This document shows positions 9,787 through 33,039 of a stretch of 34,134 nt of DNA, one piece after another. The stretch is from Nitrospiraceae bacterium (GTDB lineage Bacteria; Nitrospirota; Nitrospiria; Nitrospirales; Nitrospiraceae): positions 1 to 34,134 of the forward strand of contig OMJA01000122.1 in assembly GCA_900299245.1 (NCBI GenBank). The letters run 5' to 3'. The notes below the pieces were generated by a model. The model was not told the origin of the DNA. It was given only the letters and a program-made list of their open reading frames with translations, and ran no database searches. The position numbers and the translations under genes were made by a program. The first letter of the stretch is position 1; each line of letters starts with the position of its first letter.

Positions 9787-9800
9787 GGAGTCGCCTTGCC

Positions 9801-10748: not shown

Positions 10749-10781
10749 CGCCGGCATCGTACGCACAGAAGGAGGGGCTCG

Positions 10782-12589: not shown

Positions 12590-12599
12590 GAGCGGCGCT

Positions 12600-13430: not shown

Positions 13431-13432
13431 CC

Positions 13433-14635: not shown

Positions 14636-14647
14636 GAAGGATCATCG

Positions 14648-16470: not shown

Positions 16471-16515
16471 CAGCGGCCACAGCCGTCTCTCGTTGACGGG
16501 CAGGGGAGGGGAGCA

Positions 16516-18072
16516 ATGATCCAGATCGGACCAGTACCTTCAGCGCACCGTTCACAGGAGCCGGCGACAACACTTCCAGGCCGGCTCGATCTCCTGCTCA
16601 TCAATCCGAACTCGCGAGCCAGGGTCTATCAAAGCCTTGCGTCTGATCTCGCCGCGGTTGAACCGCCGGTCTGGATCGGATTGATCGCGACATTCATCAG
16701 GGACCGCGGTTATTCCGTCAAGATTATGGATGCGGAAGCGGAAGGCTTCGGGTCGGACGGGGTCGCAGAACGTGTCCGGCGCCTGAATCCCAGATTGGCC
16801 GCCGTCATCGTCTACGGCCAACAACCGTCCGCGTCGACCCAGAACATGACGGCTGCCGGGGAGGTCTGCAAAGCCATCAAACGGCTCACGCCCCGGCAAC
16901 CGCTGCTCATGGGCGGATTGCATCCGTCGGCTTTGCCTGAACGGACGATGCAAGAGGAGTCCGTCGATTTTGTCTGTCAGGGCGAAGGTCACTACACGCT
17001 TCTCGGCCTCCTGCGCCAGCCCGAATGGAAGGGCCCGGTTGACTACAGCCAGGTCAACGGACTCTGGTACCGGAAGCAGGGCGTCATCTGCTCGACTCCG
17101 CAAGCCCCGGTGATCGAAGATCTGGATACAGATTTACGCGCCGTGGCGTGGGATCTGCTCCCGATGGACAAATACCGCGCCCACAACTGGCATTGTTTCG
17201 GGCATATCGGCGACCGCAAGCCCTATGCCTCGATGTATACAAGCCTCGGGTGTCCGTTCAAATGCTCGTTCTGCTGCATCAACACACCCTTCGGGAAACC
17301 GATGATCCGCTACCGCAGTCCGGAAAGTGTAATCCGGGAAATCGACGAGCTCGTCACGAAATACGGCGTGCGGAACATCAAGATGGCCGACGAGATGTTC
17401 ATTCTCAATGAACGGCAGGTCCTCGGCATCTGCGATCTCATCATCGGGCGGGGATATGACCTGAACATTTGGGCATATGCACGGATCGATACGGTCAAGG
17501 ACAGCATGCTGAAGAAGCTCAAACAGGCCGGGGTCAACTGGCTGGGAATCGGCATTGAATCCGCCAGCAAATACGTCCGAGACGGAGTGGACAAGAGCTT
17601 CGGCAAGAAGGACATCAAGGAGATATTCGAGAAGATCCGTGCCGCGGATATCAATATCGGGGCAAATTTCATTTTCGGACTTCCCGACGACACCCTGGCC
17701 ACCATGCAGGAAACGTTGGACCTGGCCATCGAACTCTGCCCGGACTGGGCGAACTTCTATTCGGCCATGGCCTATCCCGGCTCAAAACTCTACGACCTCG
17801 CGCTGACAAACGGCACCGCCTTGCCGGACACCTGGGTGGGGTACTCGCAACATGCGTACGAGGCGCTGCCCTTGCCGACGGATCACGTGTCGGCTGCCGC
17901 AGTCCTTCAATTCCGCGACCAGGCGTTCCACACTTTTTTCGAGCACCCGCAATATCTCGCGCATGTGGAGCGGCGCTTCGGACAGGACACGGTCGCGCAT
18001 ATCCAATCGATGACAGCCCATCGTTTGAAACGTAAATTTGCTGACGCACCGCTTCAACCCGAGGCGGCCTGA
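16516..18072 (+). CDS. B12-binding-domain radical SAM protein
   Basis: This 518-residue protein has an N-terminal cobalamin-binding-like Rossmann domain (about 24-165: LLLINPNSR, GLIATFIRDRGYSVKIMDAEA, LLMGGLHPSALPE). It is followed by a radical SAM core with the [4Fe-4S] triad Cys246, Cys250 and Cys253 (GCPFKCSFC). GIESASKYVRDGVDKSF and FIFGLPDDT are typical of the class. The DxHxxG motif of strict B12 ligation is absent, as in many class B enzymes. Such enzymes often methylate unreactive carbon; the substrate here is probably a sugar or the finished glycan. The ribosome-binding site is a GGGGAGGGGAG run just before the ATG. About 65 C-terminal residues beyond the core are unassigned. C-methylation is an inference from family and context. 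Confidence 0.82.
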   Translation: MIQIGPVPSAHRSQEPATTLPGRLDLLLINPNSRARVYQSLASDLAAVEPPVWIGLIATFIRDRGYSVKIMDAEAEGFGSDGVAERVRRLNPRLAAVIVYGQQPSASTQNMTAAGEVCKAIKRLTPRQPLLMGGLHPSALPERTMQEESVDFVCQGEGHYTLLGLLRQPEWKGPVDYSQVNGLWYRKQGVICSTPQAPVIEDLDTDLRAVAWDLLPMDKYRAHNWHCFGHIGDRKPYASMYTSLGCPFKCSFCCINTPFGKPMIRYRSPESVIREIDELVTKYGVRNIKMADEMFILNERQVLGICDLIIGRGYDLNIWAYARIDTVKDSMLKKLKQAGVNWLGIGIESASKYVRDGVDKSFGKKDIKEIFEKIRAADINIGANFIFGLPDDTLATMQETLDLAIELCPDWANFYSAMAYPGSKLYDLALTNGTALPDTWVGYSQHAYEALPLPTDHVSAAAVLQFRDQAFHTFFEHPQYLAHVERRFGQDTVAHIQSMTAHRLKRKFADAPLQPEAA

Positions 18073-18090
18073 CACAGGACCGGTAGGAGC

Positions 18091-19146
18091 ATGGGATTAG
18101 ACGTCAACATCATCACGGGCAATCTCGGACAGGCCATTCACACCGAAGACCTGCTGGAGTATGTACGGGAAGGCCTGACCAGCGCAGGACTGAAGGTCGG
18201 GTATTCACAAACCGAATACCTAACCCATGGCATCAATATCCTGATCGAACATCCCTTCGGAGCGGTCTATGACCAACTGTACGTCATGCGAAAGCTCTTG
18301 CCGCACTCGAAGCTCTACATGATTGTGACCGAGTTGCTCACTCCGTCGGGCTTCAACTCTTCGAATTCGAAACAAACGGGCCGGATAAACCCCGAAGACC
18401 ATTACGATGACGGCGAATACTGGACCAACAGAACCCGGGAGTTCATGAGATTCGTGCCGGTCGTTGACGGGTTCATCATGGTCGGCCTGCACAAGGTCCG
18501 GGGAATGCTCCCGGCGGGATATGAGGAAGGAGTATCGAGCTATTTCCAATTGGGCAAGCCCGTGTATCTCGTGCCACTCTGTCATCCGCCGGCACCATCA
18601 CGCCCGACAACTTCGCTCCGGCACCGTGAAAAAGATATCGATATTCTGTTTACCGGCACACTCACGCCTTATCGCATCAAAGTGCTCGACGAACTCCGGT
18701 CGAGAAACTTCAAGGTCGTGGCGCTCGAAGCGCATATGCCGGCTTATCTGAGAAATGATTTTATCGATCGATGCAGACTGTCACTCGGCCTCAAATTATC
18801 CGAGGAGACGAAGATTCTGTCCACGATGCGAGCCTATCATCACCTGGTGCATCGCATCCCGCATGTCTTCGAACGCACCTCAATACGCTCGCCCCTCGAT
18901 CCGTTCATTAACGTAATCGACAGCGGGGAGCCGTTTATCGAGGCGTGCACGGAACTCTTATCCGGGAGACGGGAGTTTCCGGCACAACGTTTTGCGGAGT
19001 TTCAACAGTCCCCAGAATTCAATTATCTGGATACCTTTGCGGAATTTCGCTCAGTGCTGACTGCCAGACCGCGGCAGCGCTCGTCAGAGGAGAACCGGCA
19101 TGAAATCACTACTCTTGAACGTCATACACCAGCCTACAGATACTGA
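18091..19146 (+). CDS. GT-B-like protein, possible CgeB-type glycosyltransferase
   Basis: This 351-residue protein is not firmly recognised. The second half has KDIDILFTGTLTPYRIKVLDELR (about 181-203), then RCRLSLGLKLSEETKILSTMRAYHHLVHRIPHVFE. This arrangement resembles the nucleotide-binding half of CgeB-like GT-B glycosyltransferases. The first half shows alternating strands and helices but no clear motif. Its neighbours are two radical SAM genes, so it belongs to the glycan assembly line either as a transferase or as an accessory protein. The gene starts 18 bases after the previous stop, and its last 47 bases overlap the next gene. A GGTAGGAG sequence lies before the ATG. No signal peptide or membrane segment is seen. 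Confidence 0.6.
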   Translation: MGLDVNIITGNLGQAIHTEDLLEYVREGLTSAGLKVGYSQTEYLTHGINILIEHPFGAVYDQLYVMRKLLPHSKLYMIVTELLTPSGFNSSNSKQTGRINPEDHYDDGEYWTNRTREFMRFVPVVDGFIMVGLHKVRGMLPAGYEEGVSSYFQLGKPVYLVPLCHPPAPSRPTTSLRHREKDIDILFTGTLTPYRIKVLDELRSRNFKVVALEAHMPAYLRNDFIDRCRLSLGLKLSEETKILSTMRAYHHLVHRIPHVFERTSIRSPLDPFINVIDSGEPFIEACTELLSGRREFPAQRFAEFQQSPEFNYLDTFAEFRSVLTARPRQRSSEENRHEITTLERHTPAYRY

Positions 19147-20995
19147 ACCGTCTGGGGGATGCAGCGAATCCCTGCCCGGAACAAAAGCCGTCATCTTCGA
19201 GCATCTCAAGGCCTTATTTCCCCATGGGTGCCGCCGCGTGCTCTTGATCACGCCGCCGGAATCTCCCGAGAAGGACTTCAACCGCGATCTGGTCCTGAGC
19301 AAACGCTATCCCTGCTTTCCTCCCTACGGCCCGGGGGTTCTGGCCAGGAATCTTGAGAACCGTGGTTATCAGGGAGCGTTGCTGGATTTGAATTATCACG
19401 TCCTCAAGCATGTGCACGAACATCCGCAGGACTTCAATTTCCGCGTATGGGAAACGTGCCTGGAGGAAAAGATTCAGGCATTCCAACCGGACCTGATCGG
19501 CATCAGCGTGATGTTCACCATCTCACGGCCGTCGCTCGGCGACGTGGCCGCCTATCTCAAGAAGACTCATCCGTCCATTCCCATCATCGCCGGAGGAATC
19601 TGTGTCTCCAACGATGTCGAGTCGGTTCTACGAAGTGTCCCGGAAATCGATATCGGAAGTTTTTACGAAGCGGATCGCAGCTTACCGGATCTGCTGGACG
19701 TCGTGAACAACACCAGGCCGGTGTCCGATATACGCCAGATCGCCGTCATAAAAAACGGGACCTTCGTCTCAACCAGGGAGCGCGCCACTCCGACCGATCA
19801 GGAAATCGACGTGCAGCCGGAATATTACGATCTGCCGATCGGGGAGTATGCCCGGTATGGCTCCATGGGCGCCTATAACTTTATGCGGGGAGAACGCCCG
19901 GCCTCGACCGTCATCAGTAACCGGGGCTGCCGGGCGAAGTGCTCCTTCTGCGCCGTACGCAACTTCAACGACATCAGCGTGAGAGGGCGCGAGGTGACAA
20001 GCGTGGTCGACGAGATGGAGCAGGTGCGCGATCGCTACGGCGTCACCCATTTCATGTGGCTCGACGACGATTTGCTCTATAACACCACCCGTGCGATCGC
20101 GCTGTTCAAGGAAATCACGCGGCGCAAGCTCAATATCACCTGGGATGCCAGCAACGGATTGATCGCGGCGGCCATTACACCGGAACTGATGCAGGCCGCG
20201 TCCGATTCGGGCTGTATCGGATTCAATCTCGGACTCGAGTCGGGAAACGACCGGATTCTGAAATTAATCCACAAACCCGGCACCACGAAAAGCTATCGAA
20301 AGGCCCGCCGCATCCTTGACCGGTACCCGCACGTCTTTGTGAAAGGCTTCATGATCATCGGCTTCCCCCATGAGACGATTGCGCAAATTCGCGACACCGT
20401 GAACCTCGGATGCGAACTGCAATTCGGCTGGTATCCGTTGCAACTGCTGACCACCTTGCCCGGGACGGAAATAACCTTGAGTATGATCGAACAGGGGCTG
20501 ATCAAACCGCCGACCGACGCCAGTTTCAAAGGCCTGGCGGCCGGCTCCAAGAGCAAAGGCGGCGGCACACTCCGGCATCGCGAACAGACCGAGAAAGTAT
20601 CCGCGAGAGAGTTTGTCGATCTGCTGGCGACACTGCCCGCCGATCATGTTCCGACGACCGCCGAACTAGACGACCTCTGGTTCGTTGCCGACTATAAAAT
20701 GAATTATGAAAAGATTCTGTCTGTGCATGAACCGGTCAAGCTGCGCAACATCAGGGTGATGCTGCAGCAAATCACGGACGACTACACCGTCGACAATGCC
20801 ATGGGCAACCTGTTTCTTGCCGTCATTGCGTCAAAACTCCAGGAGTTCGGCGAGAGTCAACGGCGGCTTGCGCTGGCAACACGATACCAGGAAGAGTCGG
20901 CGTACTGGACTAAACGGTTTACCGTGCTGGGCATGAGTGCGATCGCCGAACGAGTCCGCGCCGCGAATGCACTGGCGATTCCGCTGGCGGCATAA
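19100..20995 (+). CDS. B12-binding-domain radical SAM protein (second, longer)
   Basis: This 631-residue protein has an N-terminal cobalamin-binding-like region (about 45-200: RRVLLITPPES, YGPGVLARNLENRGYQGALLD, LIGISVMFTISRP, IIAGGICVS). It continues with a radical SAM core containing Cys277, Cys281 and Cys284 (GCRAKCSFC), MWLDDDLL, GLESGNDRILKLI and GFMIIGFPHET. A C-terminal helical region (about 480-631) is unassigned. It is the last gene of the biosynthetic operon and is followed by a probable terminator. The start overlaps the previous gene by 47 bases but is supported by GAGGAG 8 bases upstream. Its sequence is clearly different from the first radical SAM protein, so the two probably act at different positions or substrates. 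B12-dependent methylation is the likeliest class; other radical chemistry is possible. Confidence 0.82.
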   Translation: MKSLLLNVIHQPTDTEPSGGCSESLPGTKAVIFEHLKALFPHGCRRVLLITPPESPEKDFNRDLVLSKRYPCFPPYGPGVLARNLENRGYQGALLDLNYHVLKHVHEHPQDFNFRVWETCLEEKIQAFQPDLIGISVMFTISRPSLGDVAAYLKKTHPSIPIIAGGICVSNDVESVLRSVPEIDIGSFYEADRSLPDLLDVVNNTRPVSDIRQIAVIKNGTFVSTRERATPTDQEIDVQPEYYDLPIGEYARYGSMGAYNFMRGERPASTVISNRGCRAKCSFCAVRNFNDISVRGREVTSVVDEMEQVRDRYGVTHFMWLDDDLLYNTTRAIALFKEITRRKLNITWDASNGLIAAAITPELMQAASDSGCIGFNLGLESGNDRILKLIHKPGTTKSYRKARRILDRYPHVFVKGFMIIGFPHETIAQIRDTVNLGCELQFGWYPLQLLTTLPGTEITLSMIEQGLIKPPTDASFKGLAAGSKSKGGGTLRHREQTEKVSAREFVDLLATLPADHVPTTAELDDLWFVADYKMNYEKILSVHEPVKLRNIRVMLQQITDDYTVDNAMGNLFLAVIASKLQEFGESQRRLALATRYQEESAYWTKRFTVLGMSAIAERVRAANALAIPLAA

Positions 20996-21067
20996 GACGG
21001 GGCCTGCCCGCCTTCTGACGCACCATCACGCGGCGTCTCATCCCCTCCGCCACTCGCCAGGTAATTG

Positions 21068-21086
21068 ATGCCGGTTCACCCGGCAT
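21068..21086 (+). terminator. Probable Rho-independent terminator after the biosynthetic operon
   Basis: ATGCCGG (21068-21074), loop TTCAC and CCGGCAT (21080-21086) form a perfect 7-bp stem followed by AATTTT. It lies 73 bases after the radical SAM stop and upstream of a candidate promoter, which fits an operon boundary. The T-run is short, so termination may be partial. Confidence 0.55.
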
Positions 21087-21164
21087 AATTTTCCGCTGCT
21101 TGCCCGGATTGGCGATTGCCTGCGTAATCAGCCGCATATTCTTCGCAGACAAGCCGACAGGCGC

Positions 21165-21180
21165 TGGCACATTCCTTGAA
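21165..21180 (+). promoter_or_regulatory. Candidate sigma-54 promoter for the glycosyltransferase operon
   Basis: TGGCACATTCCTTGAA has a perfect -24 element (TGGCAC), correct spacing and a -12 element TTGAA, with a single change from TTGCA. The start would be near 21192, about 60 nt before the giant gene. Sigma-54 drives flagellar genes in many phyla, which makes this plausible. No activator site was identified. Confidence 0.5.
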
Positions 21181-21254
21181 CATCTCTCATCTGCGCCGCT
21201 GAATCAGAAAGGCGGCATCGCTTTGCAACCCTTTGATCGTTTCATAGGCTATCG

Positions 21255-24200
21255 ATGAAAGTGCTGCTTCTCCAACTCGAGTTTCCGACCTGGAAAACGG
21301 CCAGACCCTGGACGTACGGAGCAAGCTTCGCCGTGTCCGATGGACTCGCCGCCAACGGAGTCACCTGCCTGACCGTTCCGATCGTGCCCGATGAAGCAGC
21401 CACTGCTCCCGATTCATGGCTGTCTCACGCCCGCCGCATGCTGGCTGGACAGCGATTCGATCAGGTGTGGATCTGGCTCGTGCATGCGCCTCTCGACGCA
21501 CGGGTCCTCGAATGGGCGGCGGAATTAGCTCCTGTGCGCATCGGCTTCTTCATGGAATCGCTGCGGTATGAGGAGGAGGACTATCGGTGGGCGCCCGAAC
21601 TGCGGAGTCGACATGTCACCTTTCACCGCCAGCTTGACTACCTCACTCACGCCTTGCTGGTGGATGAACGGGATGTCGCCGAGCTTCAGACCCTTGGAAC
21701 GAAACCGGCCCTCTGGTGCCCCGGTTTAGTGCCGCGACGCTTCATTACTGGCACTTCGCACGCTCCCCGCCACAACCGGGCGGTGTTTCATGGCAATGTG
21801 TACGGCGAACGCTCGCGCTGGATCGAGCATCCGCTGCTGCGCGAACGGTTAACCTTTGCCAAGTCGCCGGATGAATACACCCCGAATCAACGAAAGTTCG
21901 ACGAACTTCAAGCAATTGCAAGCGAGCGCACGCGCCATCTTCCATTAGTGACGGCCGTTGATCTGGAGCGCTATGTTCGGGCGTTGCACAACGTGCGTGA
22001 GGCCGAGTTTCGTGACTGGTTATCCGGACTTGCCGACTGGGCCGGCATCGTCAACCTTCCCGGTCTCACGCGTTGCTTCGGCGGCCGCGTCTATGAAGCC
22101 ATGGCGGTAGGGCGCCCGGTGATTTCCTGGCGTATTCCCGACAGACCCAGAGTCAATGCCTTGTTTGAGGACGAGCGGGAGATCCTGCTGTTCGCGCCGG
22201 ATGATCCTGGGGCGTTGGCCCAGCAGATCGATCGGATTCTCACCGACAAGCATCTTGCCAAGTCGATCGGCACCCAGGGACAGCGCAAACTTCTTGCCTA
22301 CCATACAGCCGAACGCCGGATGAAGGACATTCTCCAGTGGTTGGACACGGGCAAAGAGCCGGATTACGGGATCACGCCAACGGCCGCCGAGCAGCCCACC
22401 GGCCTCGCCTCCGCCACACCTGCCGGTCAACTGGCAGCTCCGCGTTCCAAGTCACAGGCTCCCGTATCCACGACCGTCTTTTTGCTGACGGTCGGTGATC
22501 CGGCCTTCCAAGCCTGTAAAGACTCGGTCGAACGGCAAACCGGGACGACCTTCAAGGTCGAAACGATTCAAAACGTCTGTCCCTTCAATGCTGCCGCCCA
22601 GGAAATGATTACGCGCTGTACCACGCCATACTTCATTCAGGTCGATGAAGATATGGTCCTACATCCCGATGCGGTCAGCCGGATGGAGCAGCAGATGGCG
22701 CACGCTCCATCTGAAGTCGGCATGATTTGCTTTCATCTCTATGACGAAGACCGGGAATGTCCGATCCAAGGAGTCAAGATCTACCGAACCGAGTCGATGA
22801 AACAGGTGTCATTCCTCGATCTCAAAGCCAGCGAAATGAATCTGTTGGACCAGATGGGGGAGCAGGGGATCCGATGGATCCTTCATCCCGACGTGCTCGG
22901 ACGCCATGGCACCCAGTACACCCCCGATACCATCTACCGGCGTTACAAAACAATGTACGAAAAAGATATCCGTCAGTGGAATCTGTTGACGTCGGATATT
23001 CACAAAAAAGCCCATCGCTTCCGGGAGACCGGCGACATCGTCCAACTGTTTGCGTTGCTCGGAGCCGCGCACGGCATTATCGATGCCCCGCATGTGCCGG
23101 ACCGGGAGAAAGACGCCCGCGCGTACAACTTGAAAGAATTGGAAATCTTCGGGCGGCTTTTCAAACACACCCCGCCGGCCAGCCAGGCCTACGATCTTTC
23201 ACGAGCGGCCGTGCCGCTGAAGAATCCACCGATTCCCCATGATCAGGTGAGCGGGACGAATCCGCAGATTCCACCGTCTACCGATCGCACCCGGCCGGCA
23301 TTGGAACAGCCGGCCTCAGTCCCTGCGACATCCGCCACAGGCTCAGCCCGGCAGCCTCGCCACATCCTCATCGTGACTCCTTATTTCTGGCCGTCGGTCG
23401 GGGGCGTGGAGACGGTGGCAGAAGATCTGGCAGCCGGACTCATTGCCTCCGGCATGACCGTCCATGTCGCATGTTATCGGCACCCGGACCGCCGGGCATC
23501 GACGCATCGTGGAATCGGGATTATTGAACTCGCCGAACCCGAGGACTCGTCCGACGGCATGCCCAGGTCTGCGCTTCAAGTCGAACAACTAATCGCATCG
23601 AATCGCTACGACGCCTGCATTCTGCTTGGCTCGCCCATGAATGCATTTTTTTATGCGATGCTCGACCTTGAAGATTTGAAAAGCCGAAATATTATTTTCC
23701 AGCCGACCCTCAATCAAGAGGGGTACAGGTTCATTCAGGAGCGGCCGGTTGTCCTCACTCTGCTCAAACAGTTGGTTAAACAAACGACGGCCGTCGTTGC
23801 ATTGGGGCATGATACCCTTGATGCCCGCTTCTGCCGGGAGATCGGCACTCCCGCGACAATCATCCCGAACGGCACACCAACGCTGAAGCCGTCGGGTGAT
23901 TTTAGACAGAAGCACCGGATCGCTGAAGATCGCTTCCTGATCGTGCATATTGCCAATCTGTATCGAGTCAAAAACCATCCTGGTCTGCTCACGGCACTGA
24001 ATACGCTGCCGCCAAGAGCCACACTCGTCGTCGCCGGACATCCGACACATGAAACCGATTATGTTGCGGAAGTGCAGCAGGCCCTCGCAGCACATCCTGA
24101 CGTCCTCTATATTCCCGGGCTCGATCGAGAGGGTGTTGCGTCGGCGATCCAGGCGGCCAATCTTGTAGTCCTGTCTTCCGACTCGGAAGTGTCACCGTTG

Positions 24201-27200
24201 TGCCTGCTCGAAGCCATGAGCTTAAAGCGGCCGTGGTTGGCTACCCCGGGCTGCGGGACCGCGAATGAACAGGCCGGAGGCTTGATCCTCCCGCTGGAGG
24301 ACTTTCCCTCAGCGATTGAATGCCTGATGGCGCATCCGGACTATGCCTCGCAACTGGCTCACGCAGGGTACGACCATTGGACGACGTGTTATCGATGGGA
24401 ATCGCTGCTCGCAGGTTGGGTGGAGTTGATCCGAGACGGGCGCCTTTCCCGCTCTTTTGATACCCCCGAACATATCGCCCGTCTTCGTGACGACCTTCGA
24501 GCCCGCTACCGGACACTTCATGCTGAAGCATCCGTGCCGCAGGCAGCGGTTCGCAGCCAGAGTCCCGCAGTCAATACGCCGCATCCTTCTGCGACTGTTT
24601 CGCCTGACGCACATCGCGTTCGCCACACACCTGTCACCCCATCACACGAGGGCGCAATGGATCAAGATCAGTTCTATATCAATATGTTCGTAAAGAGTCC
24701 CGGCTGGTCTGCGCCGGAACCCAACGAGGATGAAGCCGCGAGGTGGTCCAAGATCGCGAGCTTCCTGGAGCATATTATCCGGAGAGTGAAAACCGGCAAC
24801 CCCGATGCCACACTCCGCATGCTCGAGGTTGGAAGCGGCCGGGGCTGGCTCAGCCATTTGGCCTCGCAATACGGCTCGATCGAGGGCGTCGAACCGGTGG
24901 CAGGAGTCGTGGCCCATGCCCGCAAGATGTTTCCGAGCATTCGTTTCGAAACAGGAACGGCAGCGTCCGTCCTCAGCCGGCCTGATTTCTGTCCTTATGA
25001 TGTGGTGCTGTGCTCTGAAGTGATCGAACATGTGCCGGACCCTCAAAAGCCGGCCTTCCTCGAGGAGCTTAAGCAACTTCTGACTCCTGAAGGGTACCTG
25101 ATTCTGACCACGCCGAGAGGGGAAATGCGGGAGCAATGGGAACGGATCGCCCCTCCGTGCCAACCGATCGAGGATTGGATCACAGAAGAACGACTTGACC
25201 ACCATCTGAACGCGCAGGGGTTCACCCCGTTGGGCCTCGAACGCATCTACGTCGAGATTCCGACCCTCCGGTATATCCCTGCGCCCACTCCGGATAACTT
25301 ACGGACGATGAACCTGCTTCCCATATATCAGGTGTGGGTTGCACAGAGAACGGCGGGATCACAGGGGCAGCTGCGCGCCATGATCAACAAGACGCCGGCG
25401 GTCAGCGTCATCATTCCGACATACAACCGCCCTGACCGTCTCCGGACGGCGATCACCAGTGTGCTCAATCAGGACTTTCAAGATTTTCAGATTATCGTGG
25501 TCAATGACGGAACGACTCCGGTCGAAGCCGTCGTCAACGAGTTGAATCGTGACGGGCGCATCATCCTGGTGACACACGATCGCAATCGCGGACTGGCGGC
25601 TTCACGCAACACGGGATTGCGCCAGGCGTCTGGAAAGTACGTGTGCTATCTCGATGACGACGACCGGCTGCTTCCGCACCATCTGCGGACACTGGTGACG
25701 CATCTGGAATCCTCCGGCGACAAAATCGCCTACACCGACGCATGGCGGGTGCACGAGCGTCTGATCAATCACGCGGTAACCGAAGTGGGTCGCGACCAGC
25801 CGTACTCCGACGAATTCAATCCGCACCAATTGCTGATCGGTAATTATTTTCCGGTCCTCTGCCTCATGCACGAACGCGCCATCCTCGACGAGGTGGGCAC
25901 ATTCGATGAAAGCCTCTTCGCCCATGAGGATTGGGATCTCTGGATCAGGATGGCCACCAAATATCCTTTCAAACACCTGGCAGTCACCACAGCCGAGTTC
26001 ACATGGCGGACCGACGGGTCCTCCATGTCCAGCGAGTCAAAAGAAGTCTTCGTCCGGACCGCCGAAATTATCTACCGGAAATATGCGCCCTACGCGGCGA
26101 AGTACGCCGGCGTACGGGAGAATCAACAGAAGCGACTCGCGAATCTCAAAAAGACTCATGTACAGAAACGGTTCGTCTGCTCCATCATCATTCCCGTCTG
26201 GAATAAAGTCGAACTCACCCGCCAATGCCTTGTCGCGCTCGGCCCGGCGACCGACGATGTGTCCTTCGAACTCATCGTCGTCGACAATCATTCAACCGAC
26301 GCGACGCCTGAATTGCTGGCGTCGCTGGGCGGCGATGTTCGGATCATCACCAACAACGAAAACCTCGGATTCGCCAAAGCCTGCAACCAGGGAGCCGAGG
26401 CGGCGACAGGGGAGTATCTGGTCTTCCTGAACAACGACACCATTCCGCTCAAGGGATGGCTCTCGGCGTTAGTCAAGGAAGTGCAATCGGATCCGGCCGT
26501 CTCGGTAGTCGGCAGCAAACTGCTCTACGAAAACGGGACCGTACAGCATGCCGGCGTCGCCATCGACCGGAACAACCTCACGCCGTACCATATCTATGCC
26601 GGCTTCGCCGGCGATCATCCCGCGGTCAACAAACGGCGGGAATTGAATGCCGTGACCGGAGCCTGCCTGTTGATCCGGCGCTCGGTGTTCGCTGACCTAG
26701 GCGGGGTCGACGAAGGATTCCGCAACGGGTTTGAGGATATCGATCTGTGCCTGAAGGTACGTGAGAAGCAGGGCCGCATCGTCTACCAGCCACGGAGCGT
26801 GTTGTATCACCTGGAAAGTCAGACACCCGGGCGGAAACAGCACGATCAAGCAAACGGACGCCGGTTGCATCAGCGTTGGGGACACTGCTGGTGGCTGGTC
26901 GATGACGACAGCATCTATGCGGGAGACGGATATCGAGCCGTGTTGGAACATCACAATGGCACGGCCTCGTACAGTCTCCACCTGATCGACGGCCCTCAGG
27001 AACGCGCCGCCTGGGAACTTGTGGCGTTGATGCAGAGAGCCGCAGCGCAACAGGATCTTTCAGCCGTCGAAGCCTGTTTGCGCCGGAACGCCGAATGGCC
27101 GGCCGATGCCTCGGTCCTGCAGTGGGCGGCTTCCGTTGCCGCCGCCATGCACCTTCCAGACGTTGCCAAAGAGTGTCAGCGCAGAGCTGAAACACTGAGC

Positions 27201-27791
27201 GATCCGGCAAGCGGAGAGCTGGAACAGATCCGGACAGCTCTAACTTCCGGCCAGCTTTCACAAGCGTCAAGCCGCGTCGACGCGCTGCTGAGACAATTTC
27301 CCGCGCATGCCGAGGCGCTGCTGCTTCGATCGATCCTCCATATGCAGCGTGAACAATACCGTGAGGCGGAAATCGCGTTTACGACTGCGCTCAATCATGG
27401 CGCCAACCGCAGGAAATGCCTGATGGGCATCGGGATGGCATCGATGGGCCGTGCCTATCCTCAAGGGGCATGGCAGACGTTTCTGCGCGTGCTTGCGGAG
27501 AACCCCGATGACCCGGAGGTTGTGCATTGGCTGCTGCGGGCCGGGACCGCTCAGAACCGTTGGCGGGAATTGAGTGTGCAACTTCGCAACTTCCTGGCCC
27601 GCAATCCCAGTGACCTGTCTGTCCGGTTTGCCTATGCCGTAGTCCTGCTCCGTGCCGATCATGTCGAAGCAGCGCGTCAGGAATACGATCAATTGCGCGC
27701 CTTAGCGCCATCCTATGAAGGACTGGCCGAGCTGGGGCAGGCCATTGCAGGGAAAGAAACTCTCATGGCTGTGGATGTGTCGAACGCCTAG
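21255..27791 (+). CDS. Giant multi-domain glycosyltransferase with methyltransferase and TPR regions
   Basis: One uninterrupted frame of 2178 residues has seven recognisable regions. (1) About 1-370: a CgeB-like GT-B domain (GRVYEAMAVGRPVISW). (2) About 405-640: a GT-A-like domain with Asp464-Glu-Asp466. (3) About 700-1062: a GT4 domain (GGVETVAEDLAAGL; EVSPLCLLEAMSLKRP). (4) About 1135-1360: a SAM methyltransferase (LEVGSGRG, 1190-1197). (5) About 1376-1610: a GT2 domain (SVIIPTYNRP; DDDD 1467-1470). (6) About 1638-1900: a second GT2 domain (SIIIPVWNK; NND 1726-1728; EDIDLCLKVREK). (7) About 1905-2178: TPR-like helices. Proline- and alanine-rich linkers separate the first four regions. The protein could assemble most of a methylated oligosaccharide on flagellin, with the TPR part holding the acceptor. 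No signal peptide or membrane segment is seen. The MT region begins with Met, as if a separate gene had been fused. Confidence 0.88.
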   Translation: MKVLLLQLEFPTWKTARPWTYGASFAVSDGLAANGVTCLTVPIVPDEAATAPDSWLSHARRMLAGQRFDQVWIWLVHAPLDARVLEWAAELAPVRIGFFMESLRYEEEDYRWAPELRSRHVTFHRQLDYLTHALLVDERDVAELQTLGTKPALWCPGLVPRRFITGTSHAPRHNRAVFHGNVYGERSRWIEHPLLRERLTFAKSPDEYTPNQRKFDELQAIASERTRHLPLVTAVDLERYVRALHNVREAEFRDWLSGLADWAGIVNLPGLTRCFGGRVYEAMAVGRPVISWRIPDRPRVNALFEDEREILLFAPDDPGALAQQIDRILTDKHLAKSIGTQGQRKLLAYHTAERRMKDILQWLDTGKEPDYGITPTAAEQPTGLASATPAGQLAAPRSKSQAPVSTTVFLLTVGDPAFQACKDSVERQTGTTFKVETIQNVCPFNAAAQEMITRCTTPYFIQVDEDMVLHPDAVSRMEQQMAHAPSEVGMICFHLYDEDRECPIQGVKIYRTESMKQVSFLDLKASEMNLLDQMGEQGIRWILHPDVLGRHGTQYTPDTIYRRYKTMYEKDIRQWNLLTSDIHKKAHRFRETGDIVQLFALLGAAHGIIDAPHVPDREKDARAYNLKELEIFGRLFKHTPPASQAYDLSRAAVPLKNPPIPHDQVSGTNPQIPPSTDRTRPALEQPASVPATSATGSARQPRHILIVTPYFWPSVGGVETVAEDLAAGLIASGMTVHVACYRHPDRRASTHRGIGIIELAEPEDSSDGMPRSALQVEQLIASNRYDACILLGSPMNAFFYAMLDLEDLKSRNIIFQPTLNQEGYRFIQERPVVLTLLKQLVKQTTAVVALGHDTLDARFCREIGTPATIIPNGTPTLKPSGDFRQKHRIAEDRFLIVHIANLYRVKNHPGLLTALNTLPPRATLVVAGHPTHETDYVAEVQQALAAHPDVLYIPGLDREGVASAIQAANLVVLSSDSEVSPLCLLEAMSLKRPWLATPGCGTANEQAGGLILPLEDFPSAIECLMAHPDYASQLAHAGYDHWTTCYRWESLLAGWVELIRDGRLSRSFDTPEHIARLRDDLRARYRTLHAEASVPQAAVRSQSPAVNTPHPSATVSPDAHRVRHTPVTPSHEGAMDQDQFYINMFVKSPGWSAPEPNEDEAARWSKIASFLEHIIRRVKTGNPDATLRMLEVGSGRGWLSHLASQYGSIEGVEPVAGVVAHARKMFPSIRFETGTAASVLSRPDFCPYDVVLCSEVIEHVPDPQKPAFLEELKQLLTPEGYLILTTPRGEMREQWERIAPPCQPIEDWITEERLDHHLNAQGFTPLGLERIYVEIPTLRYIPAPTPDNLRTMNLLPIYQVWVAQRTAGSQGQLRAMINKTPAVSVIIPTYNRPDRLRTAITSVLNQDFQDFQIIVVNDGTTPVEAVVNELNRDGRIILVTHDRNRGLAASRNTGLRQASGKYVCYLDDDDRLLPHHLRTLVTHLESSGDKIAYTDAWRVHERLINHAVTEVGRDQPYSDEFNPHQLLIGNYFPVLCLMHERAILDEVGTFDESLFAHEDWDLWIRMATKYPFKHLAVTTAEFTWRTDGSSMSSESKEVFVRTAEIIYRKYAPYAAKYAGVRENQQKRLANLKKTHVQKRFVCSIIIPVWNKVELTRQCLVALGPATDDVSFELIVVDNHSTDATPELLASLGGDVRIITNNENLGFAKACNQGAEAATGEYLVFLNNDTIPLKGWLSALVKEVQSDPAVSVVGSKLLYENGTVQHAGVAIDRNNLTPYHIYAGFAGDHPAVNKRRELNAVTGACLLIRRSVFADLGGVDEGFRNGFEDIDLCLKVREKQGRIVYQPRSVLYHLESQTPGRKQHDQANGRRLHQRWGHCWWLVDDDSIYAGDGYRAVLEHHNGTASYSLHLIDGPQERAAWELVALMQRAAAQQDLSAVEACLRRNAEWPADASVLQWAASVAAAMHLPDVAKECQRRAETLSDPASGELEQIRTALTSGQLSQASSRVDALLRQFPAHAEALLLRSILHMQREQYREAEIAFTTALNHGANRRKCLMGIGMASMGRAYPQGAWQTFLRVLAENPDDPEVVHWLLRAGTAQNRWRELSVQLRNFLARNPSDLSVRFAYAVVLLRADHVEAARQEYDQLRALAPSYEGLAELGQAIAGKETLMAVDVSNA

Positions 27792-27797
27792 GACATC

Positions 27798-28973
27798 ATG
27801 TCGCGAACACTGGTCATCCAACTTGCACGACTCGGCGATCTTGTCCAGACCATGCCGATGATCGCAGCGTTACGGAAACAGTATCCGAGGGAGACTATCG
27901 ACTTGCTTTGTCCTGAACCGCTTCGCGACCTCGGCAACTTAATTCCGGGTATCGACCGGGTCATAGGCTGGAATGGCGCACAGTGGCATCACTGGGCCGA
28001 TCGTGCCAGCCAGGGGGTTCAGCCGGAGCAGCTTCGTGAGATCGAGACGGAACTTGCAGCTCTATGTCCGGAACCGTATGACCGGGCTCTGGTACTGAAT
28101 CAACATACAAGAGCCATGGTAGCGGGGACACTCCTGGCTAAAACCTGCATCGGACCGCTTCTGCATGGTCCGCTGAGCGAACAACTGACCCCATGGGCGG
28201 CCTATGTGCGTGACGTTGCGCGGACCAGACGACCGAATCGCATACATTTGTCGGACGCATTTTGCGGGATGTGCGGGCTGTTCCCGACGGGCGCCCCGTC
28301 GCGCTGCCTGACACCGCTGGTAGCACAGTCCCGCCACCTTGAACAGATCGGCCGCAACGGAGGACCTTGGGTTGGATTGATAGTCGGGGCAGGGGATACG
28401 GCCAGGCAGGTGCCGGTCGAAATATGGCGGACATGGATCGTGCGGTTTCTCGGCCTCATCCCCAGAGGACGGGTCGTCCTAATCGGGCACGGTGCGGAAT
28501 GTGAGCGCGCACAGAACATTCAACAGACCCTGCCGCCATCCGTACTCGGCCGTATTTGGGATATCACCGGTCGCACCACGATCCATGAACTGGCGCAGAC
28601 ATTGTCCCGCTGCCAACGGGTGATCGGCTCGGACACCGGCCCGCTCCACCTGGCCGCCGCCGTCGGGGTTCCGGTCATCGGATGGTATTTTGCCCGGGCC
28701 AGAGTACACGAAACAGGTCCATATGGACCGAATCACCGGGTCTGGCAGGCACAGAGCATGGATAACGGACCGGTGGTACCGGCCGATTGGCCGATCGAAC
28801 CGTCCCTGGATCTCCTGTTGAACGATTTCCCTCGATCCGCCCCCCATTGGTCAGAGTGGATCAGTCACATCGACCGCTGGGGAACTTACTACAGTGAAGC
28901 CGGGCAGACTTCGCCACCTCCGCAGGAGCGTGAACACGTGTGGCACGAACTGTCTCAAGCCGTACCCGTATGA
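27798..28973 (+). CDS. GT9 (heptosyltransferase-family) glycosyltransferase
   Basis: This 391-residue protein has the ADP-heptose:LPS heptosyltransferase fold. It opens with TLVIQLARLGDLVQTMPMI, the GT9 start. It then has LIVGAGDTARQVP, a VVLIGHGAE strand-turn and the donor-binding DTGPLHLAAAVGVPVIGWY (about 280-298). GT9 enzymes transfer heptose or related sugars. The biosynthetic operon upstream contains HddA- and HddC-like enzymes for GDP-heptose, so this is a good candidate for using that donor or a derivative. Known LPS heptosyltransferases use ADP-heptose, so donor choice is uncertain. The gene starts 6 bases after the giant glycosyltransferase, with no strong ribosome-binding site, which suggests coupling. 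The final 40 residues are a poorly conserved tail. Confidence 0.85.
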   Translation: MSRTLVIQLARLGDLVQTMPMIAALRKQYPRETIDLLCPEPLRDLGNLIPGIDRVIGWNGAQWHHWADRASQGVQPEQLREIETELAALCPEPYDRALVLNQHTRAMVAGTLLAKTCIGPLLHGPLSEQLTPWAAYVRDVARTRRPNRIHLSDAFCGMCGLFPTGAPSRCLTPLVAQSRHLEQIGRNGGPWVGLIVGAGDTARQVPVEIWRTWIVRFLGLIPRGRVVLIGHGAECERAQNIQQTLPPSVLGRIWDITGRTTIHELAQTLSRCQRVIGSDTGPLHLAAAVGVPVIGWYFARARVHETGPYGPNHRVWQAQSMDNGPVVPADWPIEPSLDLLLNDFPRSAPHWSEWISHIDRWGTYYSEAGQTSPPPQEREHVWHELSQAVPV

Positions 28974-28980
28974 GGACCTA

Positions 28981-30798
28981 ATGCAACATCTGCATGCCAA
29001 CCTGAACGGGATTCGAAGAACCTTCCCCGAGCTGGTATCAGCCTTGGAGGAAAGCTCCGGGGGTAGACTGACCATCTCGTCATCACGGGAAGGCAGCCCC
29101 ACGGCCAAGCAGGAAGAGCATTGGATTCATAGTGCGTACGATCCGAGGAAAGAGGCACGGACCTGGGCCGAGCTTCAGGCCAAAGAGTGGCAAGCAGGCG
29201 AACTCGGCGTCGTACTCGGCACCGGACTGCTGTATCACGTTGAAGCGCTCTTCGCCCTGAAACCGGCAGGAGCGTGCCTGGCAGTGGTGATCTCCGACAT
29301 TACCGCCTTCAAAGACGCGCTCACCGTTCGGGTTATGGGTCCCTGGTTCAACGCAATTGAATGGATATGGGGCAGCACCGATGACATGGCTACGCAGTTG
29401 GCCTCCAAATCGGCCCCGTTACGCTTCTTCACCAACGTGCCGGCGGCACGTCCCTACGCAGCTCAGCATCAGGAGCTCGATGTCCGCCTCCGCCAGGTCC
29501 TGGCGACACGACAACACGGTCGATTGCACGTCGCCGTCGTCGGTCCCATCTACGGTGGCTCACTCCCGATCACCGGCTATGTCGTACGAGCGCTGGAATC
29601 TCTGGGACATCGTTTCACCTGGGTAGACCATAGTGTGCACCACGCAAGTTACAACCGGTTCAACACCTTCCGGGATCCGCGCCATCGTCTGTCGATGCAA
29701 AGCCGGTTCGCCGATGTCCTCAGCATGAGTACCCTGACCGAACTCTCTGAGGATCCCCCGGACCTTGTTCTGGCCATGGCACAAGCTCCGCTGTCGCTGG
29801 GGGCGCTCGAGCATCTTCGTCGCAAAAAATTCATGACGGCCATGTGGTTCGTTGAAAATTATCGCCATCTGACCTACTGGCAACAATTGGCTCCGGGATA
29901 CGACTACTGGTTCGTCATCCAGCAGGACGACTGTCACGCCGCCCTCCGGCGAGCCGGAGCGCCTCATGTCAGCTACCTTCCAATGGCTGCGGACCCGACC
30001 ATTCATCGGCCCCTGACCCTCTCCATGAATGAACAACTGGAGTTCGGATCGGACCTGTCGTTTGTCGGAGCAGGATACCCCAACCGTCGGATGCTGCTGC
30101 CTCGCTGGATACAGAAAGACTGGACGTTCAAAGTGTGGGGAAACGAATGGGACGGCGCCGGGGCCTTATCTTCAGTACTCCAACGGCACGGCGCACGTAT
30201 TGATACCGACACCTGCGTAAAGGTCTTCAACGCGTCGTCGATCAATCTGAACCTGCATTCCAATACCAGCGAAGGCCTCGATCCGGCCGCTGACTTTGTC
30301 AATCCGCGCACCTTTGAACTGGCGGCCTGCGGGGCGTTTCAGCTTGTGGATCGACGGGCCTTGCTTCCAGACTTGTTCTCAGAAAACGAGATGGTCAGCT
30401 TCGAACAGGTCGAGGAGGTCCCGTCGCTGATCCGCACCTGGCTCCGAGATCCCGTCGGGCGACGCACGATAGCCGATGCCGCACGCCAGCGGGTTTTACG
30501 CCAGCACACGTACGAGCATCGCATGAAGGATATGTTGGCCGAATTGGGAATGCGCGAACCGGATCGTTTGGGTTCGATTCTTCGAGGGGATCGCAACGCC
30601 GAGACGCTCGCCGCTCAAACCACCACGCCATCGGAATTAGGACCACTGTTGCGTCAATTTCCCTCAGGTCAACGGGTTGAACTGAAAGACCTGGCTGCAA
30701 ACATACGCTCGCGTGGCGCAGCGACGGAGCTCAGCCGGGAGGATCTGCTCATCCTCATGCTCGATAGCTATCGGACTGAAACCAGGGATCTTGTATGA
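28981..30798 (+). CDS. Maf-like N-terminal domain fused to a CgeB-like glycosyltransferase
   Basis: This is a 605-residue protein. Residues 1-160 resemble the N-terminal part of Maf (motility-associated factor) flagellin glycosyltransferases: NLNGIRRTFPEL, a W-I-HSAYDPRKEA motif (48-59) and VVLGTGLLYH (77-86). Residues about 180-545 form a CgeB-like GT-B protein (LHVAVVGPIYGGSLPITGY; INLNLHSNTSEGLDP; VNPRTFELAACGAFQLVD; YEHRMKDML). The rest is a helical tail. Maf proteins modify flagellin Ser/Thr, and here the Maf N-terminus may guide a different catalytic domain to flagellin. The frame is open from 28894; the start at 28981 is preferred because the upstream part overlaps the GT9 gene and TGAGGA lies just ahead. 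The stop overlaps the next gene (ATGA). Confidence 0.75.
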   Translation: MQHLHANLNGIRRTFPELVSALEESSGGRLTISSSREGSPTAKQEEHWIHSAYDPRKEARTWAELQAKEWQAGELGVVLGTGLLYHVEALFALKPAGACLAVVISDITAFKDALTVRVMGPWFNAIEWIWGSTDDMATQLASKSAPLRFFTNVPAARPYAAQHQELDVRLRQVLATRQHGRLHVAVVGPIYGGSLPITGYVVRALESLGHRFTWVDHSVHHASYNRFNTFRDPRHRLSMQSRFADVLSMSTLTELSEDPPDLVLAMAQAPLSLGALEHLRRKKFMTAMWFVENYRHLTYWQQLAPGYDYWFVIQQDDCHAALRRAGAPHVSYLPMAADPTIHRPLTLSMNEQLEFGSDLSFVGAGYPNRRMLLPRWIQKDWTFKVWGNEWDGAGALSSVLQRHGARIDTDTCVKVFNASSINLNLHSNTSEGLDPAADFVNPRTFELAACGAFQLVDRRALLPDLFSENEMVSFEQVEEVPSLIRTWLRDPVGRRTIADAARQRVLRQHTYEHRMKDMLAELGMREPDRLGSILRGDRNAETLAAQTTTPSELGPLLRQFPSGQRVELKDLAANIRSRGAATELSREDLLILMLDSYRTETRDLV

Positions 30799-32471
30799 GC
30801 CGGCAAGTCTTGATCCTCAACATGACACGGATGGGCGACCTCGTGCAGATGGGTACATTGCTGGCTCGGCTACAGGAAGAATGGCCCGGGGTCGCCATCG
30901 ACCTGGTTGTGGATAGACAGTTTGCGGCCGTTGCGTCGTTACTCTCCGGCCTTCGTGAGATTATCGCCTACGACTTTCATGCACTGATCGACGACAGCCG
31001 GGCAGCCGTCAAGAATGTCGCAGCACTCTACCAGGATGTCGCTTCCTGGGCTCGTCCCTTGGCGGACCGACGGTATGACCGCATCATCAATCTCACCTTC
31101 AATCGGCCCAGCGCCATGCTCAGCTCCTATATCGGCGCACCGGACATCCGCGGAGCACGGAGCGCCTGGGACGGACAAAGCGTCATCGACAATCACTGGA
31201 TGGCCTACTTTACCGACATGCATCACTTTCGTGCCATGAACCGCTTCAATCTCGTCGATGTCTATGCGTTGGGAGGAAGTGGCGTCGGCACATTTGCGCC
31301 TCTGGCCGTGACCGTCACTGCCGCAGCACAAGACTGGGCACGCCGGTTTCTATCGACGGCCTCCGGCGATACCAGAGAATGGATCGCCGTACAGGCCGGG
31401 GCCAGCGATATTATGAAATCCTGGCGTCCAGAATACTTCGGCCGTGCCCTGGCTCATGTGAGTGCTCAATGGGACGGTGGCATCGTGTTGATCGGAACAC
31501 CCGCCGAGCAAAACACGATTGCTCAGGTCGTACGAGCCTATCGGGAGGCAGGTGGCCAGAGCCCGGTACTGAACGCCGCCGGCAAAACTACGCTCGAACA
31601 GCTGGTGGGGCTGCTCGCAGAATGCCGCCTTCTTCTGACAAACGATACCGGGCCGATGCATCTGGCCGTGGGAGTCCGCATTCCAGTCATCGATCTGTCG
31701 GTCGGACACGTAGATTTTCGCGAGACCGGACCCTACGGATCGGGACATTGGGTCATCCAACCGGAGCTCGACTGCGCGCCCTGCGGCTTCGATCAAGTCT
31801 GCGCCCATCAAACCTGTAAAGATCGCTTGCCGGTCAGGATGGTCGCGGACGTGGTGCTGCATGTCCTCGGAAAACATCCGGCGCCACAATCGGCACCAGG
31901 CTATCGAATCTTTCAGTCCGCAATTGATGAGGATCAACTCGGATCGTTTCGTTTGATCGGACAAGCGGACATATCTGACGTCGAGTGGTACAGCCGCTTT
32001 TGGAGGCGCTATTGGTACGAAAGTCTGACGCACACAACCAGCCGCATTCCACTTGACTCGACCGGTCCTTCAAACCTCCAATCCGCGATCCATCACCTTT
32101 CCTGCATGATGCCGTTCGTCGAGACGCTCTGCCGCCAGGCCGACACCATCGTGCGCGCGGCGGCTCAGGCCTCGCAGTCACCGAACAGCCTGCAATCGTT
32201 GCAGCGGGAACAGACAGCCCTCCGCGAACGGGTAGTACAGTCGGGAATGAGCCATCTCGTGAGTTCTCCTGTCACGACGGCCTTCGTACGAAGCCTCCAT
32301 AATGACAACGTCAAAGGATTGGAACGGATGGCCCGGCATCATGCGCTGGCCTACCGCCACTGGAGGCGGCATCTCGAAGAGATTCACAAACTGCTTACCC
32401 AGAGAACATCGAAATCAATGCAGCGTTCATTTCCAATGTTCACCGGTTCACTGGCCGCGCACTCCGGATAG
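30795..32471 (+). CDS. GT9 family glycosyltransferase with a C-terminal helical extension
   Basis: This is a 558-residue protein. Residues 1-370 are a GT9 domain: VLILNMTRMGDLVQMGTLL at the start, VQAGASDIMKSW, a VLIGTPAEQ segment and NDTGPMHLAVGVRIPVIDL (about 282-300). A Cys-rich patch CAPCGFDQVCAHQTCKD follows and resembles the Cys cluster seen in some GT9 proteins. Residues about 385-558 are a mainly helical extension rich in Gln, Arg and Ser, and have no counterpart in the upstream GT9 protein. The extension could bind flagellin or another transferase. The ATG overlaps the upstream stop by four bases. It is the last transferase gene before the small unknown gene and flagellin, 49 bases ahead of the former. 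Confidence 0.82.
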   Translation: MSRQVLILNMTRMGDLVQMGTLLARLQEEWPGVAIDLVVDRQFAAVASLLSGLREIIAYDFHALIDDSRAAVKNVAALYQDVASWARPLADRRYDRIINLTFNRPSAMLSSYIGAPDIRGARSAWDGQSVIDNHWMAYFTDMHHFRAMNRFNLVDVYALGGSGVGTFAPLAVTVTAAAQDWARRFLSTASGDTREWIAVQAGASDIMKSWRPEYFGRALAHVSAQWDGGIVLIGTPAEQNTIAQVVRAYREAGGQSPVLNAAGKTTLEQLVGLLAECRLLLTNDTGPMHLAVGVRIPVIDLSVGHVDFRETGPYGSGHWVIQPELDCAPCGFDQVCAHQTCKDRLPVRMVADVVLHVLGKHPAPQSAPGYRIFQSAIDEDQLGSFRLIGQADISDVEWYSRFWRRYWYESLTHTTSRIPLDSTGPSNLQSAIHHLSCMMPFVETLCRQADTIVRAAAQASQSPNSLQSLQREQTALRERVVQSGMSHLVSSPVTTAFVRSLHNDNVKGLERMARHHALAYRHWRRHLEEIHKLLTQRTSKSMQRSFPMFTGSLAAHSG

Positions 32472-32520: not shown

Positions 32521-33039
32521 ATGCACGTCATGCTTGATCAGGAACACTGGGAAGTCGCCGATGCCAGAACACTCGGCGACGTGCTTGCCGATATCAGCGA
32601 GAGATCTCATGCACGTTCGCGTCTGATCACATCGCTGATCGTCGACCAGCGGTCTATCACGGACCGTGATCTCGATCCCGATTTCCTTCGCGAACCCGTC
32701 GCACGTTTTTCACATCTGACGGCAACGTCACAAACGCTGGACGATGTCATGCGCGGAGCGGCGCAATCGATTCAACAGTACGCCACCCTTTTGCGAAGTG
32801 ATGCCAGAGAATTAGCCGCCGAGTTCAGGATGGGAGAAGAACGTCTCGCTTCATTGGACGCGTGGCTGGGCAAACTGGCCGACTATATCGAACTCGTCGA
32901 ATCCGGACGGCGGACGGCTCCCTCCAGCAAAGCTCTCACTCCGTGGGTTCAAGAATTGCTGGAGGCGAGGGCAGAGAGAGATGTCGTCCGACTGGCCGAC
33001 CTCCTCGAATATGAGCTGATCCCCAGATTGGAGTATTAA
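32521..33039 (+). CDS. Unrecognised small protein upstream of flagellin
   Basis: I do not recognise this 172-residue protein. Residues 1-75 (VMLDQEHWEVADARTLGDVL, then VDQRSITDRDL) look like a beta-grasp (ubiquitin-like) arrangement. Residues 76-172 are predicted to be long amphipathic helices (DDVMRGAAQSIQQYATLL; LASLDAWLGKLADYIELVE). It has no Cys, signal peptide or membrane segment. AAGGAG (32511-32516) precedes the ATG by 4 bases, a strong signal. It sits between the transferase operon and the flagellin promoter, so a role in flagellin handling is plausible, such as a chaperone, a glycosylation adaptor or a regulator. It lacks FliS or FlaG hallmarks. The coding call rests on frame length, ribosome-binding site and orderly spacing. 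Confidence 0.75.
   Translation: MHVMLDQEHWEVADARTLGDVLADISERSHARSRLITSLIVDQRSITDRDLDPDFLREPVARFSHLTATSQTLDDVMRGAAQSIQQYATLLRSDARELAAEFRMGEERLASLDAWLGKLADYIELVESGRRTAPSSKALTPWVQELLEARAERDVVRLADLLEYELIPRLEY

Follow-up and report, generated by a model that had tools for sequence, protein, structure and literature searches.

What would a single bacterial polypeptide build if it carried five glycosyltransferase (GT) domains, a methyltransferase and a helical-repeat tail in one reading frame, and on which acceptor would it work? We sought to answer this question for a gene at positions 21255-27791 of a 34,134-nucleotide stretch of DNA (contig OMJA01000122.1, referred to here as the window) from a Nitrospira genome. 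All window features described below lie on its forward strand. The gene stands close to a flagellin gene in a conserved order, and its product is probably a soluble cytoplasmic multi-enzyme that would dock flagellin through its TPR tail and build a methylated O-glycan on it prior to export.

Domain content of the chain

The candidate modular glycan synthase gene is a single open frame of 2178 codons with an ATG start. Two circumstances could suggest that separate genes were falsely joined during assembly, namely the fragmented state of the draft (3.0 Mb in 351 contigs) and the presence of separate genes in place of one frame in some relatives. However, stop-free frames of 2.1-2.3 thousand codons were found in 20 of 296 genomes sampled from the phylum, spread over two genera of one family, and three of these 20 genomes (G022, G024 and G245) are single contigs. 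Because the long frame recurs in about 20 genomes, single-contig ones among them, it is not a product of chance or assembly, and we rejected the artefact explanation as having practically no chance of being correct. The 2178-residue chain claimed in the original prediction, made from the window's sequence, was thereby confirmed, and the stop codons that might have split it were not found in any of the 20 genomes.

Along the chain, the domains follow one another in the order D1, D2, D3, MT, G2a, G2b and TPR. We built AlphaFold2 models of the protein as two halves, with mean predicted local distance difference test (pLDDT) values of 77.6 and 85.0; the predicted template modelling scores of 0.44-0.46 mean that the placement of one domain against another is not fixed by these models. 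D1 (21255-22409, residues 1-385) is a GT-B type glycosyltransferase with a PF13524 match in its C-terminal half (residues 274-361) and a profile that matches GT4-type structures. D3 (23352-24449, residues 700-1065, Pfam GT4 at 716-1022) combines the GT-B fold with the E-x7-E motif (E978-x7-E986) expected of a GT4 enzyme, and its model superimposed on sucrose-phosphate synthase 6kih with a Z-score of 34.1 and a root-mean-square deviation (rmsd) of 2.9 over 351 aligned residues. MT (24657-25364, residues 1135-1370) is a class I S-adenosylmethionine (SAM) methyltransferase with a Pfam match at 1170-1324 and a GxGxG motif at 1193-1197; its model matched CmoM 8joz (Z 21.2, 210 aligned). G2a (25392-26156, residues 1380-1634) and G2b (26169-26921, residues 1639-1889) both show the GT-A fold, the DxD-like motif and the ED acid that characterize GT2 enzymes. 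In G2a these are DDDD at 1467-1470 and ED at 1558-1559 (Pfam GT2 at 1384-1493; model against 9jn3 with Z 26.5, rmsd 3.0, 240 aligned), and in G2b they are NND at 1726-1728 and ED at 1827-1828 (Pfam GT2 at 1642-1875). The G2b model reached a Z of ~22 to polypeptide GalNAc-transferases, which was level with other GT2 enzymes. We rejected this likeness as proof of transfer to a peptide, since GT2 enzymes with non-peptide acceptors scored within about 1 Z unit. The chain ends in a TPR-type helical tail (26994-27788, about residues 1914-2178) with a Pfam TPR match at 1995-2051 and helical repeats in the model.

D2 (22467-23174, residues 405-640) is a divergent GT2-like GT-A domain. In the window protein it has no Pfam match; of 23 family members, 13 gave a weak GT2 match, with E-values no better than 1.6e-5. 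Its model shows a GT-A-like order of strands and helices at low to moderate confidence. A sequence search of D2 against the PDB returned no relative, and a search for it on plasmids gave no match.

Taken together, Pfam matches, motifs and models support the proposed make-up of a single chain, in which a methyltransferase and a TPR tail accompany five GT-type domains, and domain-level structure prediction returned a GT4 fold for D3, GT-A folds for G2a and G2b, a CmoM-like MT and a tail of helical repeats. The earlier description of five different folds did not hold, as only two were seen, in the order GT-B, GT-A, GT-B, GT-A, GT-A. In alignments of 22 sequences for the N-terminal half and 39 for the C-terminal half, each of the six presumed catalytic domains kept near-invariant motifs, with E281, G286 and P288 of D1 and DED at 464-466 of D2 fully invariant, so the loss of motifs that would have spoken against an assembly enzyme was not observed. 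The ratio of nonsynonymous to synonymous substitution rates was 0.01-0.24 in every domain of the compared pairs, indicating purifying selection, with synonymous changes saturated for distant pairs. These observations suggest that each of the six domains is active.

Linkage to flagellin

The chain is followed by a separate GT9 glycosyltransferase (27798-28973), a DUF3880/PF13524 glycosyltransferase (28894-30798), a second separate GT9 glycosyltransferase (GT9b, 30795-32471), a conserved 172-aa protein of no known family (h172, 32521-33039) and a flagellin of 275 aa (33235-34062), the likely acceptor, with a Ser/Thr-rich middle at ~140-190. This downstream order, from GT9 through DUF3880, GT9 and h172 to flagellin, was found in every one of the 42 related loci in which the contig extends as far as flagellin. 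The distance from chain end to flagellin is ~5.4 kb in the window, 5.2-5.7 kb across loci and 6.6 kb in the outgroup locus L097. Among 34 genomes of the same genus, 30 carry both the C-terminal core of the chain and flagellin and four carry neither (Fisher p 2e-5, without correction for the tree). The host genome encodes one true flagellin; a further match, a frame of ~583 aa, is FlgL-like in size. Nearly all related loci retain the 172-aa protein at this position, after GT9b and before flagellin, and it is perhaps a flagellin chaperone or cofactor.

Across the products of the 7.6-34 kb locus we looked for membrane-span-like segments and found none, so that the locus encodes neither a flippase nor an oligosaccharyltransferase. 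A Maf-type enzyme (PF01973) was found neither among the gene's Pfam matches nor in the 20 genomes of the genus that we searched, the host's own included. Taken together, the linkage and co-occurrence with flagellin and the lack of both a membrane protein and Maf indicate that flagellin is probably glycosylated step by step in the cytoplasm. The locus shows the conserved linkage of glycosyltransferase genes to a flagellin gene that marks a putative flagellin glycosylation locus, and the substrate of the chain is very likely flagellin, as judged from gene order and co-occurrence. The original prediction of glycan assembly thus stood as regards the single multi-domain chain, its kept motifs and its origin by fusion, but missed the flagellin target. 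We found no study of flagellin glycosylation in Nitrospira in the open literature, and a literature search for multi-domain flagellin enzymes of comparable size returned nothing relevant.

Module exchange and gene fusion

Comparison of domain order across relatives, which the original prediction had put forward as a check, revealed a constant C-terminal core and variable N-terminal modules. GT2-GT2-TPR is constant at the C-terminus and is mostly preceded by the methyltransferase. The N-terminal part occurs as D1-D2-D3, D1, MT24-D1, D1-G2x, NX-G2x, GTx-G2x-XX (without methyltransferase) or is missing altogether. N. moscoviensis, for example, carries GTx-G2x-XX-G2a-G2b-TPR, and N. defluvii carries D1-G2x-MT-core. 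On the core tree we counted at least seven state changes for D2-D3, five for MT24, four for D1 and three for MT, where the counts are minima that pool gains and losses. The break points between gained, lost or swapped N-terminal modules fall at domain linkers.

The same units also occur as separate genes. Outgroup loci L083 and L084 have a D1-D2-D3 gene and an MT-core gene, L097 a gene running from D1 to MT and a core gene, L099 separate D1-bearing, D2-D3 and core genes, and the deltaproteobacterial locus L114 a D1-MT gene and a core gene, while four Nitrospira loci (L022, L023, L025 and L089) carry MT-core as a standalone gene. These separate units support gene fusion, as had been suggested, although fission may have occurred in some lineages. 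We rejected a reading of L099 as having separate D2 and D3 genes, since one frame is parted there by a single stop codon, giving at most a separate D2-D3 gene. L099 also contains (12443-22942) a relative of 3500 codons in which a single frame repeats the G2b-TPR unit three times, a form of the core with tandem modules. A relative of 3007 codons from an uncultured Geobacteraceae (L115, 5032-14052) has a GT4 module after the TPR region, with DUF3880 and GT9 genes adjoining, so the order of modules is not fixed outside Nitrospirota.

One such border lies between D3 and MT, where a linker containing Pro, Ala and Ser (24534-24656, pLDDT < 50) coincides with the split point in L083 and L084. The methionine noted earlier after this linker, residue 1135, aligns with the start methionine of standalone MT-GT2-GT2-TPR proteins. 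Its in-frame ATG (24657) follows a Shine-Dalgarno-like GAGGG (24648-24652), the pair spanning 24648-24659. Such a stretch precedes the methionine in 29 fused loci that retain it, the window included, with a median anti-Shine-Dalgarno pairing energy of -6.5 kcal/mol (to -10). The other in-frame ATGs, 995 in number, have a median of -2.5 kcal/mol, and 5.9% of them attain -6.5. The residues encoded by this stretch vary by clade (EGA, EDR, GGG, EGS, EES). The site either is a relic from a time when the core was a gene of its own or still serves as an internal start.

The genes upstream of the chain (7637-20995) are concerned with sugar nucleotides and sugar modification and vary between relatives. 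They encode a DegT aminotransferase, epimerases, an HddA/HddC-like kinase and nucleotidyltransferase, an SDR, a class I aminotransferase, two subunits resembling thiamine-diphosphate enzymes and two B12 radical SAM proteins, a set from which we would guess at unusual donor sugars, perhaps heptose-derived or branched. The two neighbouring genes at 14648-16467 resemble the alpha and beta subunits of pyruvate dehydrogenase E1, that is, transketolase-like halves; together with the two B12 radical SAM genes, this pair may point to a sugar that is branched or has an extended carbon chain. Between the radical SAM genes lies a 351-aa protein (18091-19143) without a Pfam match, which among the related loci has a clear counterpart in L040.

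Identity profiles along the chain break at residues ~350-400 in opposite directions against two relatives. Compared with L044, D1 is 84% identical and every other domain 49-68%, and a common upstream block (12473-18004) is shared at 85.5%; compared with L041, D1 is 50% identical and the rest 74-90%. Across 39 loci, similarity in D1 followed similarity in the upstream genes when the core was controlled for (partial Mantel r 0.507, p 0.0005); for MT this association was absent (r -0.066, p 0.83). In the 20 loci bearing D2-D3, the correlations with the upstream genes were 0.61 for D3, 0.36 for D2, 0.32 for MT and 0.27 for G2a, as would be expected if exchanged segments extended to differing depths within the gene. 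D1 may thus use a sugar made by the upstream genes. A tie between the presence of D2 and one upstream gene family was rejected, as only two of the families tested had a nominal p of ~0.03, which was not significant after correction. In L103 (10001-11110), from the anammox bacterium Candidatus Brocadia, a D1 relative lies near radical SAM, GHMP kinase, nucleotidyltransferase and DegT genes, which suggests exchange of the cassette between phyla.

Proposed assembly and related enzymes

We propose the following course of assembly. Flagellin that is yet to be exported would be bound by the C-terminal TPR tail, the protein-proximal sugars would be attached and extended by G2b and then G2a, and MT would methylate a sugar. 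The N-terminal modules D3, D2 and D1 would then add the outer sugars, and the stand-alone GT9, DUF3880 and GT9 enzymes encoded in the cluster would supply further residues. D1 would take an unusual sugar from the upstream genes and be swapped together with them, such that the outer glycan would vary by strain and the core stay constant. We infer this order from the pattern of a constant core and a variable end: a constant core beside the TPR tail and variable N-terminal modules would fit growth outward from the C-terminus, the reverse of reading order. By extension, the enzyme may follow a logic like that of polyketide synthases, in which a constant flagellin-docking C-terminal core is served by swappable N-terminal transferases exchanged with sugar genes at linkers, so that the glycan would change in one step and grow from C to N, possibly with a core-only product; we offer this extension tentatively, as a possibility that may well fail.

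Several points weigh against the proposal. Flagellin glycosylation by this chain is predicted here from genes, and the contact between TPR and flagellin would follow from analogy with FlmG, whose TPR region is N-terminal. In the genomes of the genus without flagellin, the entire flagellar region probably disappeared in a single event, and co-occurrence is then no proof of the acceptor. The correlation of D1 with the upstream genes could stem from physical linkage alone, since one recombination moves both neighbours; MT and G2a also track these genes, more weakly, within the D2-D3-bearing subset; and neither the loci nor the pairs are phylogenetically independent. D2 is only weakly recognizable as a GT2-like GT-A glycosyltransferase.

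The enzyme might instead make a surface polysaccharide or the glycan of a lipopolysaccharide (LPS) on a lipid carrier, its proximity to flagellin being mere chromosomal neighbourhood. Loci for LPS and polysaccharides typically contain GT2, GT4, GT9 and HddA/HddC-like genes, and a methyltransferase of the WsaE type with two GT enzymes works on lipid-linked S-layer glycans (PMC2943079). Against it stand the gene order kept up to flagellin in 42 loci, the strict co-occurrence within the genus and the lack of a membrane protein in the locus; we regard this explanation as unlikely. Alternatively, only part of the domains may be active. The rest, D2 foremost, would then have a structural role or bind the acceptor, and flagellin would carry a short glycan. 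The missing PDB relative, weak Pfam support and low to moderate model confidence of D2 speak for this; the near-invariant motifs in every domain, the DED of D2 among them, and the purifying selection in each speak against it, and we find it doubtful.

Compatible with cytoplasmic flagellin glycosylation by the full chain is the idea that a second product, a 1044-aa MT-GT2-GT2-TPR core, is made from the start at residue 1135. In its favour, the Shine-Dalgarno-like stretch is stronger than at other in-frame ATGs in 29 fused loci despite differing residues, and standalone core genes begin at the aligned methionine. The stretch may however be left over from a separate gene, the methionine is lost in one clade (L046-L049, L054, L056, L094), the site is weak in most MT24-bearing loci, and the 29 loci are related and hence not 29 independent cases. 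On balance, such a second product appears rather unlikely.

How does the chain compare with known enzymes? WsaE of Geobacillus stearothermophilus consists of an N-terminal methyltransferase and two rhamnosyltransferase domains (PMC2943079). Judged by domain order only, it resembles MT-G2a-G2b in being a soluble single chain with the methyltransferase first and two GT domains after it. It differs in belonging to an S-layer glycan pathway with a lipid carrier and ABC export, without linkage to flagellin, and as described it has neither a TPR tail nor the three extra N-terminal GT domains. FlmG of Caulobacter is a cytoplasmic flagellin O-glycosyltransferase whose TPR region binds flagellins (PMC7591256). 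Like the Nitrospira chain, for which flagellin modification is predicted, it joins TPR and GT in one cytoplasmic chain; in contrast, it has 596 aa, an N-terminal TPR and a single C-terminal GT-B domain that adds one sugar, whereas the Nitrospira chain has a C-terminal TPR and five GT domains. PA1091/FgtA of Pseudomonas aeruginosa PAO1 fuses a GT2 and a phosphotransferase of the flagellin glycan pathway in one gene (PMC11833859). It shares with our chain the fusion of several activities, but has two of them and not six, and neither TPR nor methyltransferase as described there. The best Foldseek matches of the C-terminal half were the chondroitin polymerase K4CP (2z86, 2z87; E 2.7e-22 for 2z87) and heparosan synthase 2 (8vh7), which likewise have tandem GT domains; they are polymerases of alternating disaccharides, place their domains differently (rmsd 13-22 over both) and lack methyltransferase and TPR. 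None of WsaE, PA1091, FlmG and K4CP combines all features, and we found none described as shuffled with sugar genes. By predicted function, the Nitrospira chain would belong among the multi-domain flagellin glycan enzymes.

Multi-activity glycosyltransferases with two or three domains are known. Here, six presumed catalytic domains and a putative docking tail share one chain that is conserved across the genus and recombined at the boundaries of its domains, along with the genes that make the sugars. If our proposal is true, this family would be a natural experiment on a glycan sequence encoded by domain content, and would let one ask whether domain order sets glycan order. The proposal predicts that flagellar glycans vary between strains of Nitrospira, a globally important nitrifier genus, and one may speculate that phages or grazers drive the switching.

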